Origin: Gemmiger formicilis
GTDB lineage: Bacteria; Bacillota; Clostridia; Oscillospirales; Ruminococcaceae
Assembly (NCBI RefSeq): GCF_016900095.1
Contig: NZ_JACJJP010000001.1
Span: forward strand, 1-64,000
Reading direction: 5' to 3'
Length of the DNA: 64,000 bases
This document shows positions 4,330 to 10,496 of the stretch, in pieces; position 1 is the stretch's first letter, and the number at the start of each line of letters is the position of its first letter. The notes under the pieces are model-generated. The model was not told the origin of the DNA and did no database searches. It saw only the letters and a program-made list of their open reading frames with translations. The translations under genes and the position numbers were made by a program.

Positions 4330-4500
4330 TTTTTTGAAAACACATTCCGGGAAACGTCATGTAGCAAGCAATGCTTGTTGAGGGCAGTGCCTCCAATCCC
4401 CTCTTGAACACAGAATTTCACTCTGTGGCTGCGCGTTCTTCGAACGCTTCGAGAGGGTACGCCAAAACGCCGTCCCCCTTTGGTCAAGGCTGGAACAATT
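4330..4500 (-). repeat. Putative dispersed repeat (GDGVLAYPLEAFEERAATE type)
   Basis: On the minus strand this stretch reads as GDGVLAYPLEAFEERAATE, stop, then NSVFKRGLEALPSTSIACYM. From memory, such short translated strings recur as spurious small proteins in Faecalibacterium-group genomes, which suggests an intergenic repeat rather than a gene. It directly cuts off the solute-binding protein gene: the last residues of that frame (LFQP) already belong to the repeat. The repeat claim rests on recollection and needs a genome search. Confidence 0.45.
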
Positions 4501-4921
4501 CGTTGCTTCCCTTATTATAGTAATTAACCGCCTGCGGCATGTCATAGCTCATGATTATATCAGGCGCTGTCTGCGCTGCGATCATTTGCATATAATCCTG
4601 CACTTCCGTCGTACGTCCGATTGCCACATACTCTACATTTATGTTGTATTTATCACCAAATTCTGTCTGCACCCAATTTGTATAATAATTATCCGTAGGA
4701 TCCCAACCTTCATATGCCCTGTCATATACCGGAATCTGAATCGTAACTTCTTCTGGGAACCCTTCCGAATAGTCTTTAAAACCGGTTCCATCTTCTGTAC
4801 GGTTAGATGTTGCTTCACTCCCCTGATCTTTGGCTCCGCATCCGGCCAATGTACCAACCACCATTGCCGCTGCCAGAACAACCGCCGCACTCCTCGCTGC
4901 TTTTTTTCTCATCTCAGCCAT
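4484..4921 (-). pseudogene. Truncated sugar ABC solute-binding lipoprotein
   Basis: It starts with a lipoprotein signal peptide (AVVLAAAMVVGTLAGCG; lipobox LAGC), a low-complexity linker, then the start of a LplA/family-1 extracellular solute-binding domain (VTIQIPVYDRAYEGWDPTDN). Full-length members have about 500 residues; only about 140 remain. The frame breaks at about 4500 at the putative repeat. Permease genes that normally follow are absent. It is divergent from araC and probably once imported the oligosaccharide cleaved by the GH95 enzyme. Confidence 0.8.
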
Positions 4922-5039
4922 CCTTTCTTACCTTTCATCTCTCCATTTTGTGCATCAAACAATCAATAAGCGCTTGTTTTTTGTTTATTTTGTATAATCA
5001 GTATATATTCATCCGCCTTTCTCATGTAAGATAATAATG

Positions 5040-5089
5040 CGACATTTCGGGGAGTAATCTGTCATATTTTATCTATAATTTTACGACAT
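5040..5089. promoter_or_regulatory. Triple-box regulatory element R1, candidate AraC site
   Basis: CGACAT (5040-5045), 14 nt, TGTCAT (5060-5065), 18 nt, CGACAT (5084-5089). The same three boxes with the same spacing occur at 6055-6104 in front of the GH95 gene, while the sequence between boxes is not conserved. The element lies between the divergent promoters of araC and the solute-binding gene, ending 8 nt before the araC -35. Confidence 0.7.
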
Positions 5090-5097
5090 GATAGTTA

Positions 5098-5126
5098 TTG
5101 ACCATGGACATCTTTTTTATTAAACT
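5098..5126 (+). promoter_or_regulatory. araC promoter
   Basis: TTGACC (5098-5103), 17-nt spacer, TAAACT (5121-5126). It lies directly downstream of R1, the position expected for activation by an AraC-type protein. On the other strand a TATACT (5005-5000) could serve the solute-binding gene. Confidence 0.55.
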
Positions 5127-5159
5127 CAGAATAAAATAACAGAAGATTGGAGAAATGAC

Positions 5160-6017
5160 ATGGGCGTAGAAACTTTTTCTATTGAGGTAACTTTTCGCTT
5201 TAATCACGCACTGTTTCGGGTTGAAAGCATCAGTCGCGGAATTTTAGAAGAAAGCATGCCGGAGCACAGCCACGGACATGGGAATTATGAAATTCATTAT
5301 ATTTTTTCCGGCAAAGGGAGCGCCGTTATTGACAATTCGTTTTATTCCGTTTTGCCTAATACTCTCTATGTCACCGGCCCACATGTCATACATTCACAGA
5401 CCCCTGACAAAGAGGATCCCCTGACCGAATATTGTATATACTTGTCTCTAGATACGAAAAATATACCGGATTCTAAAAAGAGTCCTCTGGCACATTTCTT
5501 TCTGAATCAGGTTTTCTGGTACGGACAGGATAATCAAAACGTACTGCCTGTACTCAATCAAATTTTCCATGAATTAACAGCTCAAGAATTGGGATACCTC
5601 GATCAAATCAGAGCTTTATTATGCCAGTTTATTATCGCTCTTCTGCGCAATTACAAACAAACCGTCAATTTTCCCACTCTATCCGCGCAAACCACTCTGT
5701 CGGAAAGACGTTCTCTTCTTATAGAACAATACTTTATTTACGAATATGCCACACTTTCGCTTGAAAGCCTTGCCAACCGCATCGGTCTTTCTCCACGTCA
5801 AACCCAACGTTTTCTAAGGGAACATTACGGGAAAACTTTCAGCCAGAAAAAACGTGAAAGTAAAATGGCAGCTGCACTCCAGCTTCTTTCCTCATCACAG
5901 GAAAGCATCACTTCCATTTCAGAAAAGCTCGGATTTTCATCTGTAGAATATTTTTCATCCTCCTTTCGGAAATATTATAAACTGTCCCCGCAGGAGTATC
6001 GCAGACGCCAGACATAA
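5160..6017 (+). CDS. AraC-family regulator with cupin sensor domain
   Basis: A 285-residue protein. The N-terminal half is a cupin-like sugar-binding domain (PEHSHGHGNYEIHYIFSGKG, about 33-55). The C-terminal 100 residues hold two helix-turn-helix units (LESLANRIGLSPRQTQRFLR and ITSISEKLGFSSVEYFSSSF) and the family signature ending in KYYKLSPQEYRR. GGAGA precedes the ATG. Such proteins activate adjacent glycan genes when bound to sugar. The twin triple-box elements in front of this gene and the next suggest it controls itself, the divergent transporter and the GH95 gene. Confidence 0.9.
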   Translation: MGVETFSIEVTFRFNHALFRVESISRGILEESMPEHSHGHGNYEIHYIFSGKGSAVIDNSFYSVLPNTLYVTGPHVIHSQTPDKEDPLTEYCIYLSLDTKNIPDSKKSPLAHFFLNQVFWYGQDNQNVLPVLNQIFHELTAQELGYLDQIRALLCQFIIALLRNYKQTVNFPTLSAQTTLSERRSLLIEQYFIYEYATLSLESLANRIGLSPRQTQRFLREHYGKTFSQKKRESKMAAALQLLSSSQESITSISEKLGFSSVEYFSSSFRKYYKLSPQEYRRRQT

Positions 6018-6054
6018 CTATTAGAGAGCATTCTGTCCCTTTCCTGTAAAAAAG

Positions 6055-6104
6055 CGACATGTTTTTATATAGTTTGTCATGATTTTCTCTGAAAAATCCG
6101 ACAT
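6055..6104. promoter_or_regulatory. Triple-box regulatory element R2, candidate AraC site
   Basis: CGACAT (6055-6060), 14 nt, TGTCAT (6075-6080), 18 nt, CGACAT (6099-6104): the same boxes and spacing as R1. It lies between the araC stop and the GH95 start. AT-rich sequence with -10-like hexamers (TAATAT, TATGAT around 6123-6131) follows, without a good -35, as expected for an activator-dependent promoter. Confidence 0.7.
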
Positions 6105-6195
6105 AGTATATTTATACTGTAGATAATATGATTCTTGTGTAAACCGGAATATTGCTCCCGGTTATCCATCACACACAAGAGCAGAGGAGGAAAAA

Positions 6196-8583
6196 ATGTG
6201 GAAACCAATTATACTCACACGTGACAGTATCTATATGCAGTATCCGTCTTCATGGTGGAGAGAAACATGGAGAGAAGCTTTAGTCAGTGGGAACGGGCAT
6301 ACCGGAGCCAGTTTTTACGGCGGGACAAAAGAACAGACACTCATGGTCACAGATGGCGGTCTATGGTATGGCGGAGAAGCGAACAGGCTTCCGGATGTTC
6401 ACCATGCGCTCGAACGGATGCGCAGCAAAATGGATCAGGGAATGTTTAAAGAAGCCAGCTGGGAGCTTGTTAATGAATTAAAACGACAAGGTTATAATTC
6501 AAAACTGGAATCTCCTCTTCCTGTCGGCGATCTGAAAATACAAATTATTCCTCATGGGACATTTCACGATTATCTGAGGGTACTCCAGATGGATACCGGT
6601 GAAGCATCCTGCCAGTGGCAGGATCAGGACGTCCGTTATCGGTGCGATGGTTTTGTCTCCAGAGCTGATGATATGATCCTATATCGGATCCAGGCCTCCA
6701 GCCCTGTAATCTGCGCAAATTTCATGGCAGATATCCATACAGTTCCCGGGCTTGAAATTCCGGAAAGTTATCAGAAAATCGCGGTCCAAAAACATATCGA
6801 GGTAACGGATGACTGGATCTTATATGAATCTTCCAATCTTGATGACCGCTATTTTGGAATGGCAATACATATCATCTCCAACGGGACTCAAAAAGCTCAG
6901 TTTGGACGGATTTTTGTAGAAAGCGCTGATGAAATTACTGTTATGATACGTCCGTTTATTAAAGAAACCTCTAAAAGAGGTTTGCCAAAAGCGAAAGATT
7001 GGATTTTGTCACACAGCAAAAGCTATGACGACATGCTTGCATCGCATATTCCGTTACATGCAAAACTATACCACAGTGCCGAACTGGAACTGGACGGATA
7101 TAATGAAAAAAGCAATGAATCTTTGCTCCATCAGGCGTTTACTTCCGAGCAGTCACCCGAACTAATGGAAAAGATGTGGAAATTCGGCAGGTATCTTTTC
7201 ATCAGCGGTACATCGGAAAATGATGCTCCATTTGCACTCTACGGAATCTGGAACGGAAATTACCAGCCTATCTGGGCGCACAATATGGCAAATGAAAATA
7301 CTCAGATGATCTACTGGCACAGTTTCGTCGGGAATCTTGCAGATTTCCACCGCTCATTATTCCGGTACTATAATTCCAAAATGGAAACATTCCGTGAAAA
7401 CGCACAGAAACTGTTTGGCTGTCGCGGAATCTATATGACCGCCGGAACAACGCCGGGAGTATCCGAACCCACTCAGGTTGTTCCTGTTATTATCAATTGG
7501 GTCGGAGCCGCCGGATGGATAGCGCAGCATTACAGCACTTATGTATGTTACCGCCCGGAAGACGAAGATTATATAAAAACCGAGATATTACCATATCTTG
7601 AAGAAGTGGCTGCTTTTTACGAAGATTTTATTCAATACAAACAGGATGGCAGCATTAAAGTCTATCCCAGTGTTTCCCCGGAAAATACACCGCAGAACTT
7701 TATGCCGCCCCTTTCGGAAATGATCGCACACCCAATGCCGACGACAATCAATTCCACAATTGACCTTGCGATCATAAAAGAATTTTTCACGAATCTGATC
7801 CATATCAGCGAAAAATACAACTGTTTCCATGAACGCAGGGCAGGATGGGAAAAAATTCTCCGGTCAATCCCGCCTTACAAAACCAATGAACTCGGGGCTA
7901 TCAGAGAATGGCAGGATGAACAGTTTGAAGACCGTTATGACCATCGTCATCTGTCACATATTTATCCGGTGTTTCCGGGCAACGAGGTCAACACTGTTGA
8001 TCAGCCTCAGGAAATTAAAAAATACAAAAAAGCTGTCGCGCTTCGAAAAATAGATGCCCAGACCGGATGGTCCATGGCTCATATGGCTATAATATATGCT
8101 CGTTTTGACGAGGGGGAAACTGCAGCGCAGTGTCTGGATAACATGGCAAAATCATGCCTGCTCCCCAACTTTTTTACGCTTCACAATGACTGGAGAGGCA
8201 TGAGTATCACACTCGACATCGACTCTGCCCCGGTTCAATTGGATGCCGCGCTCGGATACGTAGACGCGATACAGGAAATGATACTCTATGCTTCCAAGGA
8301 TTTGCTGAAAATCCTCCCGGCACTTCCCAAAAGAATGAACGCCGGTAAAGTTCAGCATTTCTGTTATCCCGACGGGGAAATATCCATTAATTGGAACCGG
8401 TCAGAATACAGACTTGACATCGAAATGCAGGCTGCCCGTGCCCATACGATCCGTATTGTTCTTCCGGCATATGCAGATTCCTTTATCTGGGGAAACAGTA
8501 ACGTCCGGAAAATTACTACCGGTATCTATGAAATTTCATTCAGGCAAAAAGGCGATATCATGAAAGGTCAAAATCAAAAATAA
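6196..8583 (+). CDS. Glycoside hydrolase family 95-like (alpha-L-fucosidase/galactosidase)
   Basis: A 795-residue protein with the GH95 layout: N-terminal beta-sandwich beginning WREALVSGNGHTGASFYGG (about 21-40), an (alpha/alpha)6 barrel with LYGIWNGNYQPIW (about 346-358), the SPENTPQ segment (about 494-500) that matches the catalytic-acid region, and DHRHLSHIYPVFPG (about 580-593), then a C-terminal beta domain. GH95 enzymes remove alpha-1,2-L-fucose or alpha-L-galactose by inversion. No signal peptide is seen, so it should act on imported oligosaccharides. Ribosome site AGGAGG is well placed. Its neighbours handle rhamnose-like sugars, so the substrate may be a rhamnose- or fucose-containing glycan; the exact specificity is open. 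Confidence 0.8.
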   Translation: MWKPIILTRDSIYMQYPSSWWRETWREALVSGNGHTGASFYGGTKEQTLMVTDGGLWYGGEANRLPDVHHALERMRSKMDQGMFKEASWELVNELKRQGYNSKLESPLPVGDLKIQIIPHGTFHDYLRVLQMDTGEASCQWQDQDVRYRCDGFVSRADDMILYRIQASSPVICANFMADIHTVPGLEIPESYQKIAVQKHIEVTDDWILYESSNLDDRYFGMAIHIISNGTQKAQFGRIFVESADEITVMIRPFIKETSKRGLPKAKDWILSHSKSYDDMLASHIPLHAKLYHSAELELDGYNEKSNESLLHQAFTSEQSPELMEKMWKFGRYLFISGTSENDAPFALYGIWNGNYQPIWAHNMANENTQMIYWHSFVGNLADFHRSLFRYYNSKMETFRENAQKLFGCRGIYMTAGTTPGVSEPTQVVPVIINWVGAAGWIAQHYSTYVCYRPEDEDYIKTEILPYLEEVAAFYEDFIQYKQDGSIKVYPSVSPENTPQNFMPPLSEMIAHPMPTTINSTIDLAIIKEFFTNLIHISEKYNCFHERRAGWEKILRSIPPYKTNELGAIREWQDEQFEDRYDHRHLSHIYPVFPGNEVNTVDQPQEIKKYKKAVALRKIDAQTGWSMAHMAIIYARFDEGETAAQCLDNMAKSCLLPNFFTLHNDWRGMSITLDIDSAPVQLDAALGYVDAIQEMILYASKDLLKILPALPKRMNAGKVQHFCYPDGEISINWNRSEYRLDIEMQAARAHTIRIVLPAYADSFIWGNSNVRKITTGIYEISFRQKGDIMKGQNQK

Positions 8584-8594
8584 ACTGTTTTTTC

Positions 8595-8640
8595 AAGGTG
8601 CTGACGGCATCAATGGCGACAGCACCTTTATTCTGATTTT
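8595..8640 (+). terminator. Terminator of GH95 gene
   Basis: AAGGTGCTG (8595-8603) pairs with CAGCACCTT (8620-8628) and is followed by a T-rich tail. It separates the convergent GH95 and mutarotase genes. Confidence 0.65.
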
Positions 8641-8658
8641 AAAACTGCTGCCCGCTGC

Positions 8659-8973
8659 TTAATCCAGATGAAATACTTCCTTAAGATCCACAGACACCGG
8701 GCTGTTATCCGGATTTGTCTCCATGATATCCGCCATGAAATCCCACCATTTACGGTTAATCGCCGTATCTGCGCTCTCATCCCATTTTCCGGCGTCTTCA
8801 ATCTCGATATATCCGTAAAGGACCAGCGTCTCCCTGTCAAGGAAGATCGTATAGTTTCTTCCGCCGTACTCGTGGATCATGTCCTGCATCTCCGGCCACA
8901 GTTCATTATGGCGTTTTTCATATTCTGCTTCCATTCCCGGATACAGTTTCATTTTAAATCCTTTTCTGATCAT
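8659..8973 (-). CDS. rhaM: L-rhamnose mutarotase (RhaM/YiiL family)
   Basis: At 104 residues it matches the length of the E. coli enzyme. It has the family pattern MKLYPGMEAEYEKRHNELWPEM (the His is thought to be catalytic), YTIFLD, LYGYIEIED and a WWDFMADIM core. The enzyme interconverts alpha and beta anomers of L-rhamnose (and to some extent related 6-deoxy sugars) in the cytoplasm before isomerisation. It is last in a minus-strand run after the TIM-barrel isomerase and broken dehydrogenase. Confidence 0.88.
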   Translation of the reverse strand: MIRKGFKMKLYPGMEAEYEKRHNELWPEMQDMIHEYGGRNYTIFLDRETLVLYGYIEIEDAGKWDESADTAINRKWWDFMADIMETNPDNSPVSVDLKEVFHLD

Positions 8974-9015
8974 AATGGTTTTCTCTCCTATCTCTGATAT
9001 TCATTAAAGCAGGTT

Positions 9016-9840
9016 TTATATCACTGTGTTTTCCCACAATTCTCTCATATATTTCAGATCCTGCTGCGCTGTCTCCATCTGCAGTTCCTCTCTCACGATC
9101 ACGATATCCGGCTTATTCGTCTTCAGCCATCTGATGATCCTGTCATAGCGGATCACGCCCTCGCCCAGACATACCGGGATATATTCCCCGTTTTCGCCGA
9201 GGACGAAATCTTTCATATGGACCGCTTCTATCTTATCTCCAAGCTCAGACAGCCATTCATCCCAGTATGCGTCCTGGTCGATCTCCGGATGTTCCAGCAC
9301 ATTGGCCGGATCAAATATCATCCTGAGACGGGAACTGTTCATCTTATCGAAGACCATCGCCGTCGTCTCCAGGTCTTTGAGCGGGTGCCAGTACACCGGT
9401 TCAACGGCCATGTCGACTCCCAGGCGCTCTGCCTCTTCCACCAGACGCGCGATGCTGTCCATCATATACGGATGCCAGATCTTCTTTTCCTCATCTGTCA
9501 GATGCGGATATGCGGTCTCGGATCCGACGATGGACGCGCCGAGCATTTTATTGAACGCAAGGCATTTCTTAAATGTGTCTACAGCGTTTTTTCTCACATC
9601 GTCATCCGGATTTCCCAGATCCATATAACAGCCGAGAATGTGGATCTTTATCCCTTCTCTTTCAAAATCAGACCGGATCCTTTCTATGATCTCAGGCGTT
9701 ACATCATCATAGGAACTGATCTCCGTAAATCCTTTCGGCAGCACCAGCTGCGCGGCGTCGATCCCCTCCCCTTTTAAATGTCCCGCCAGACGGTCTATCG
9801 GTTGTTTCCCATAATCATGGGTTCTTGCTGCGATCAGCAT
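9016..9840 (-). CDS. Sugar phosphate isomerase/epimerase (xylose isomerase-like TIM barrel)
   Basis: A 274-residue protein with the AP-endonuclease-2/xylose-isomerase-like fold. Metal-ligand candidates are Glu in DMAVEPVYWHP, Asp in MIFDPANVLEHPE, His in VHMKDF and Glu in VIVREEL, in the order usual for the family. Members isomerise or epimerise sugars or inosose with a divalent metal. It sits between a mutarotase and a KduD-like dehydrogenase, so it may process a deoxyhexose or uronate product. The exact reaction cannot be assigned. Confidence 0.8.
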   Translation of the reverse strand: MLIAARTHDYGKQPIDRLAGHLKGEGIDAAQLVLPKGFTEISSYDDVTPEIIERIRSDFEREGIKIHILGCYMDLGNPDDDVRKNAVDTFKKCLAFNKMLGASIVGSETAYPHLTDEEKKIWHPYMMDSIARLVEEAERLGVDMAVEPVYWHPLKDLETTAMVFDKMNSSRLRMIFDPANVLEHPEIDQDAYWDEWLSELGDKIEAVHMKDFVLGENGEYIPVCLGEGVIRYDRIIRWLKTNKPDIVIVREELQMETAQQDLKYMRELWENTVI

Positions 9841-9928
9841 ATTGTTCCTCCTACTGCACAGGGGCGTGCAGTAAATGCGCGCCCCTGATGTGAAACTATG
9901 TATTTAGATCCTGTTGTCCCCGGACATA

Positions 9929-10496
9929 TTACGGCTGTTTGCCGATGTAGGCAAGGATGCCGCCGTCTACATCCGTTCACGAAGTCAGAAGCGTCGGAAG
10001 CAAGGAATACTGCCGGTCCCTGAAGGTCTTCCGGGTTGCCCCATCTTGCAGCCGGTGTCTTGGACACGATGAACTGGTCGAACGGATGTCTGCTTCCGTC
10101 AGCCTGACGCTCACGCAGCGGAGCTGTCTGCGGTGTAGCGATGTATCCGGGTCCGATGCCGTTGCACTGGATGTTGTACTCGCCGTACTCGGAGCAGATG
10201 TTTCTTGTAAGCATCTTCAGTCCGCCCTTGGCAGCCGCGTATGCGGATACAGTCTCGCGTCCGAGCTCGCTCATCATGGAGCAGATGTTGATGATCTTTC
10301 CGTGACCTTTCTCAATCATTCCCGGGATAACCGCCTTGGAAACGATGAACGGTGCGTTCAGGTCTACATCGATGACTTTGCGGAATTCATTTGCCTCCAT
10401 CTCAAGCATCGGTTTTCTCAAATGCCTCCTCACTTTCGTCCGCCACTTTTTTCCCGGATGTATAACCAGGGCTTGCGGCAGTTCTTTTTTATTCAT
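9929..10496 (-). pseudogene. KduD/gluconate 5-dehydrogenase-like SDR, truncated and frameshifted
   Basis: Homology starts only at about 10410 (MLEMEANEFRKVIDVDLNAP). The NAD-binding front third (TGxxxGxG) is missing and replaced by about 29 foreign residues (MNKKELPQALVIHPGKKW...). The catalytic core is present (NICSMMSELGRETVSAYAAAKGG). After SDFVNG the frame shifts: a loss of about 11 nt at about 9970 puts the expected end (VDGGILAYIGKQP, stop TAA at 9931-9929) in another frame. The enzyme would have reduced a keto-sugar acid with NADH; it is now very likely inactive. Confidence 0.82.

Follow-up and report, generated by a model that had tools for sequence, protein, structure and literature searches.

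Two copies of a 25-bp imperfect inverted repeat in Gemmiger formicilis (RefSeq assembly GCF_016900095.1, contig NZ_JACJJP010000001.1) are predicted to be the operators of an AraC-family activator encoded between them, with class-II activation of the kind known from RhaS; a probability of about 0.8 is given to this reading. The window, meaning the whole 64,000-nt stretch analysed, covers positions 1 to 64,000 of the contig. The regulator gene (285 aa, AraC_binding and HTH_18 by Pfam) is located at 5160..6017 on the + strand. Predicted operator E1 (5040..5064, - strand) was placed by the exact match of its boxes and by leftward geometry, and predicted operator E2 (6055..6079, + strand) by exact match and rightward geometry. 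Going by the position of the -10 elements, the copy at 6055 would drive the GH95 gene (alpha-L-fucosidase family, 795 aa, 6196..8583, + strand) rightwards, and the copy at 5040 the divergent solute-binding/ABC operon leftwards. On sequence grounds, the neighbouring regulator very probably binds the switch at both promoters.

The GH95 catalytic domain scored 301.4 bits against a Pfam cutoff of 27. The divergent gene at 4484..4921 (- strand) is the remnant of a solute-binding protein gene, with 145 aa compared with 545 aa in locus L004 (Mediterraneibacter agrestimuris); the L004 protein matches SBP_bac_8, and the remnant itself gave no Pfam match. Further members of the same island, identified using Pfam and all on the - strand, are a rhaM-family gene (8659-8973), a xylose-isomerase-like TIM barrel (9016-9840), and a short-chain dehydrogenase (9834-10496) that is 5'-truncated here and intact in L004. 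Window positions 4514-10420 are 96.6% identical to L004, and shorter stretches of loci L005 and L006, the latter a 5-kb contig, match the window at 96-97%. On the transporter side, L004 carries the 545-aa solute-binding gene followed by two ABC permeases, and the solute-binding frame of L005 is shorter at 346 aa. The island in the window (4484-10496) is a fragment, with the solute-binding gene shortened, the permeases absent, and the dehydrogenase truncated at its 5' end. No island copy of 60-90% identity turned up. From these matches and the remnant gene, the locus is, as judged by sequence comparison, a sugar-use island of which several species carry parts, the transporter half having been lost in the window. 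At the island edge in L005 (9857-11272, strain 1xD8-48), the TIM-barrel gene is fused in frame to ParB-like sequence (by eye), and the species therefore hold different fragments.

An earlier note on this DNA described the element as three boxes, CGACAT-N14-TGTCAT-N18-CGACAT, with exact copies at 5040-5089 and 6055-6104. The window scan confirmed both as exact matches, and 100 dinucleotide shuffles of the window gave 0 matches. In the genome of the same strain (3.26 Mb), a search allowing up to 3 mismatches returned the 5040 and 6055 copies plus one 3-mismatch match on another contig, with no further copy at up to 2 mismatches. Boxes 1 and 2 are CGACAT at 5040-5045 and TGTCAT at 5060-5065 in E1, and CGACAT at 6055-6060 and TGTCAT at 6075-6080 in E2. 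The third box, CGACAT, is at 5084..5089 (+ strand) on the araC side of E1, as an extra half-site, and at 6099..6104 (+ strand) in E2, between the -35 region and the -10. The distances between boxes had been thought to look selected, which holds for one copy and partly for the other: among the four island copies compared (window, L004, L005, and L006, 96-97% identical), the 6055 copy has N14/N18 in 4/4, and the 5040 copy in 2/4. In L005, the 5040 copy is N18/N18, with N18 (a G run) in place of N14, and in L006 it is N14/N19 with CGTCAT as the second box. When the related genomes were scanned, as had been proposed, even a looser form (N13-15, N17-19) was found in 1/394 genomes of the order, namely the own genome. 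The note had also held that orthologous loci without the boxes would count against the element; these loci lack the full three-box pattern, and most of them retain boxes 1 and 2.

AraC homologues were searched in overlapping samples of the family (7/197 genomes and 10/396 genomes positive, each at a cut-off of 1e-30), the order (12/394, at 1e-35), and a second family (7/250, at 1e-45), the own genome being counted in the first three. This yielded 21 AraC-homologue loci in 19 other genomes (about 26-47% identity), all of which were fetched, and a homologue was also present in one plasmid record among 72,556. The element recurring at these loci in scans with boxes 1 and 2 is an inverted repeat with the best form CGACAT-N13-ATGTCG and the consensus CGACA-N15-TGTC(G/A). 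In 16/21 homologue loci (one weak), it is part of a composite in which a TATAAT-like -10 follows the repeat by 33-34 nt, usually with a TCTT-like block in between. That the boxes are regulatory and bound by the AraC protein encoded between them, as had been suggested, is upheld in a modified form: since most homologues carry boxes 1 and 2 near their genes, this protein is the best candidate for the binder.

A training set was built from 12 sites facing promoters, namely the two of the window, nine beside homologues, and one elsewhere in genome G335; left out were E1 read forwards, L071b, L073a, L073b, L074, L088, and L090. GACA is present in 12/12 training sites, TGTC in 11/12, and GTC in 12/12. 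The TCTT block, 9-12 nt after the repeat, has T in 11, C in 9, T in 12, and T in 10 of the 12 sites, and the -10 (TATAAT or TATACT) starts at 33 nt in four sites, 34 nt in seven, and 35 nt in one, which is E1. Because orientation and -10 were chosen by eye, these regularities prove nothing alone. In E1, read leftwards, the TCTT block is at 5028-5031 and a -10-like TATACT of the divergent solute-binding gene is at 5000..5005 (both - strand), the latter 35 nt from E1. In E2, TCTG at 6088..6091 takes the place of the TCTT block, at 9-12 nt from the repeat and in the -35 region, and a -10-like TATACT of GH95 is at 6113..6118, 34 nt after the repeat (both + strand); the E2 -35 (CTGAAA) is poor. A site just upstream of or overlapping the -35, which is a trait of AraC/XylS operators, was thus found in the sequences (33-35 nt in training sites, 33 or 34 nt in held-out sites). 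The arrangement of a direct-repeat operator, with two like-oriented half-sites some 21 bp from each other, was not found, GACA and GTC being inverted in 12/12 training sites. Not every exact palindrome fits this geometry: for one in L071, located before GH95, and two in L073, no -10 was seen at 33-34 nt on either side, and all three stayed outside the training set. A prior prediction of an intergenic palindrome with up to 2 mismatches failed in its strict form in 3/3 loci, and all three do have a -10 at 33 nt. In L073 (4551-5450), the frame of the araC homologue stops after the first HTH, and there is an exact palindrome close to each end of the matched stretch.

A matrix of the repeat and its flanks, without the -10, was built from the 12 training sites and run on 12 held-out loci. 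For the null, 24 other loci were scored (about 3 kb each, less than the length of the test loci; maximum 9.2), together with five 10-kb pieces of the window (maximum 6.6). The best hit exceeded 9.2 in 7/12 held-out loci (L015, L017, L054, L069, L074, L094, and L095; scores 14.8-29.0), and all seven hits have at least 5/6 of TATAAT at 33 or 34 nt, compared with 4.1% on shuffling. The other five loci did not rise above the null. Two of them have no sequence upstream of araC (the contig of L016 ends at the araC start, and that of L075 begins inside araC), and the remaining three scored 6.5 (L053, which nonetheless has TATAAT at 34 nt), 8.0 (L055), and 8.8 (L073). Leave-one-out scores of the training sites were 17.3-45.1, except for L019 (3.8). 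In the training loci, the runner-up hits scored as high as 10.4 (L014) and 14.6 (L072, where the hit overlaps the site itself), close to the 14.8 of the weakest held-out hit (L017).

The exact palindrome was found 8 times in 15 homologue-bearing genomes, 5 of them within about 1.2 kb of an araC homologue, including 3/3 in one genome. With one mismatch allowed, a reversed control was commoner than the palindrome in 13/15 genomes, and the bare repeat is therefore not specific. The composite pattern, which misses E2 on account of its TCTG, gave 10 places in 9/23 regulator- or island-bearing genomes, 9 of them within 4 kb of araC, and the control gave 1 match. Across 305 genomes of the order, assumed from their handles to lie inside the order-level sample of the homologue search, it gave 15 places in 12 genomes. 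These are 6/9 homologue-bearing genomes compared with 6/296 others (Fisher p=7e-8), several of the former six having also trained the composite pattern. G000 and G182 contain further exact two-box matches; these fall within coding frames and were put down to chance. The exact CGACAT-N13-ATGTCG of L088 (G129, 1501-1525) lies within a longer inverted repeat (GGCTAG...CTAGCC) and is probably unrelated, and an exact palindrome in L090 (G132) lies inside an ORF; neither was counted as an operator.

The regulator matches HTH_18, the C-terminal double HTH, at residues 204-283 with 71.3 bits (Pfam cutoff 33.6) and AraC_binding, the N-terminal ligand-binding domain, with 45.5 bits (cutoff 21.1), and its solved relatives by sequence include MarA. 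The motif RQxxR in the first HTH is present in 22/22 aligned regulators (20 of the 21 loci, the window, and L108); it is not unique to the clade, since 3oio, a solved family member, has it too. The regulators of L019 and L053 read RQASR in the recognition helix, and their boxes are GGACA instead of CGACA (L019 885-909, L053 5463-5487), a hint only, from sequence, of a possible specificity change. Pfam was run on selected neighbour proteins, whose genes are not all the first after a site. GH29 fucosidases were found in L015, L017, L053, L067, L069, L095, and L096, and GH95 in L071 and, just above the cutoff, in L094. Zinc dehydrogenases are present in L014, L067, L068, L069, L070, and L096, aldo-keto reductases in L014 and L015, amidohydrolases in L019 and L053, UxuB/UxaA-like enzymes in L018, and GH2, GH4, GH38, and GH141-like genes among L077, L071, L072, and L073. 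In Paenibacillus sp. 37 (Bacilli), an AraC regulator, GH95, and ABC transporter genes adjoin, and in the gap between them a repeat with 2 mismatches is followed at 34 nt by TATAAT on the GH95 side; the site has no TCTT and was not ranked first by the matrix. In a third family (L107/L108, L113/L114), the composite occurs between AraC-type and BNR-type genes and also before a rhamnosidase-like gene, and by matrix score the sites of L113/L114 are not conspicuous.

The element, its recurrence, the fixed distance to the -10, and the linkage to a regulator clade were computed, and from them we infer binding, activation, and the ligand as follows. A dimer of the AraC-family protein would bind the 25-bp inverted repeat just upstream of the -35 and would also touch the TCTT-like block on the promoter side. 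From TGTC to the end of TCTT, the near half-site spans 17 nt, which is the usual length of an AraC half-site. With the start of transcription taken from the standard spacing, 7 nt past the -10 hexamer, the repeat would run from about -70 to -46, centred near -58, and TGTC...TCTT from about -50 to -34, matching a promoter-proximal AraC-type half-site in both position and length. The near half-site would thus abut or overlap a poor -35, and from this placement and length class-II activation by the dimer is proposed, RNA polymerase being recruited by the near half-site in the style of RhaS, which recruits it class-II fashion. GH95 would be switched on from E2, and the solute-binding/ABC operon from E1 in its opposite orientation; a 6-deoxysugar of the fucose type, or a fucoside, is the probable inducer. 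The araC gene itself would be transcribed from its own candidate promoter, TTGACC-N17-TAAACT (5098..5126, + strand), which was found by a consensus scan 8 nt after the third box of E1 and scores 9/12 in a scan that is weak (6 sites in the region compared with 3.6 in shuffles). At this candidate promoter, CGACAT at 5084 and GGACAT at 5106 form a 22-bp direct repeat (window 5084-5111), and the 44 bp from 5040 to 5084 is twice that period.

The same half-site position could instead serve repression, with the dimer sitting on the repeat and blocking polymerase until an inducer lifts it, and the reach of the near half-site into the -35 region and the third box between -35 and -10 of E2 are in keeping with this. 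It is considered unlikely, given that the distance from the repeat to the core promoter downstream of it is nearly constant, that the poor CTGAAA of E2 is as expected of an activator-dependent promoter, and that Caldicellulosiruptor AraC-family sites in that position, upstream of promoter elements, are taken to mean activation in the available part of the source (PMC8579813). A different protein, global or two-component, might bind the repeat and make the araC linkage incidental; this appears quite improbable. The composite does occur in the 6/296 genomes without a detected homologue, but 2 of the 8 places there (G254, G430) are next to a more distantly related AraC-type gene that has RQxxR, and face a BNR-type gene, and 5/8 exact palindromes lie close to an araC homologue. 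A second place each in G254 and G430 precedes a rhamnosidase-like gene, three places are inside coding frames (G274, G275, G407), and one is intergenic, beside an HTH-type gene (G419). The identical box order and spacing would also be expected if the two copies descended from one promoter segment by an old duplication. The earlier note had argued from differing bases between the boxes against a recent duplication, and rightly: the spacers agree at 4/14 and 6/18, together 10/32, positions, about chance for AT-rich DNA, and the same repeat is found in different flanks in relatives, which makes this origin highly improbable.

Activation through boxes 1 and 2 leaves the third box to be accounted for. 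It could be part of a single operator with three half-sites bound together, the third being needed for regulation, as the three-box unit of the earlier note implied. Both copies have the box without mismatch and at an identical offset, an event with a chance of about 1e-5 by a rough estimate for a hexamer repeated at one shared offset within 60 nt, and the box is unchanged in all four island copies. However, no box is found at the same place in the 19 other promoter-oriented sites (0/19), the pattern is confined to 1/394 genomes, and the spacing to the E1 third box is 19 in L006, shifted by 1 nt. Relative to their promoters, the two copies are in opposite orientations, and the third box therefore lies upstream of one promoter and between the -35 and -10 of the other. 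A three-half-site operator is for these reasons unlikely, and the claim of a three-box unit is not borne out. In L094 and L054, ATGTCA is at -23 and -26, within 1-2 nt of the place of the E1 third box (-25); this is about the chance rate by a rough estimate and was not counted as support. Two other roles were discarded: as a -35 (CCGACA-N18-GATAAT), the third box fits E2 only, E1 having by eye no -10 at that distance, and as half of a second palindrome, it has by eye no partner at N13 in either copy. The third box is unlikely to be chance, and from the sequences it looks like a local extra beside the shared two-part inverted repeat. Rather unlikely, too, is a reading in which it is the half-site of a switch, the inducer moving the regulator from a pairing with box 3 to boxes 1 and 2 and thereby activating. 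If so, box 2 or box 1 would pair with box 3 without inducer, and the alternative pair would cover the -35 to -10 stretch in E2, silencing GH95, and would reach the araC promoter in E1. Such a switch would be a compact counterpart, with three half-sites, of the looping switch of AraC, and would have arisen on a single mobile fucoside island from an ancestral form with two half-sites that relatives still carry. The extra box in any case offers a natural comparison of two- and three-half-site promoters under one regulator.

Boxes 1 and 2 as the operator of the neighbouring activator give a concrete, testable prediction for a clade of AraC-type regulators often adjoining fucosidase genes, and searching unannotated genomes for repeat, TCTT, and -10 together can suggest fucoside regulons. 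For AraC proteins linked to fucosidases, no published operator with this sequence was found in the open-licence literature, where a DNA motif is not searchable as such. Inverted-repeat AraC sites are known already, and this fucosidase-linked operator sequence appears to be new as far as the literature search reached, in sources available in part. In the gut bacterium Ruminococcus gnavus, GH95 genes are up-regulated on fucosylated glycans and fucosyllactose, but the AraC gene described sits in the sialic acid cluster, and the passages available give no GH95 operator (PMC3808388). The order of GACA and TGTC had been called unusual for AraC sites; it is a plain inverted repeat with precedents, according to the passages available, in RhaR, RhaS, ToxT, AdpA, and SAV742. 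SAV742, AdpA, and the inverted ToxT sites likewise have AraC-family proteins on inverted repeats, with arms of 5 nt that are 10 or 12 nt apart in SAV742 and a distance of 13-14 nt in AdpA, and with sequences and functions that differ from those here (PMC9722767, in part). There is a close likeness to RhaS and RhaR of Escherichia coli, AraC-family regulators of genes for a 6-deoxysugar (L-rhamnose) with an inverted repeat upstream of the promoter, although the host lineage differs and the half-sites of RhaR are 17 bp with a 17-bp spacer, whereas here GACA and TGTC are 15 nt apart at a fixed distance from the -10 (PMC3870299, in part). The far half of the repeat has no conserved AAGA block to match the TCTT of the 17-nt near half-site, and the inner spacing differs from that of RhaR. 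As here, the rhamnose regulators of Bacillales, Bacteroides, and Enterococcus and those of Caldicellulosiruptor are AraC-type proteins of sugar-use genes, but their motifs are direct (tandem) repeats, either with a period of 21 bp or with large spacers; in these literature passages, the AraC-type sugar sites described for Bacillota are direct repeats, in contrast to the inverted repeat described here (PMC3870299, PMC8579813).
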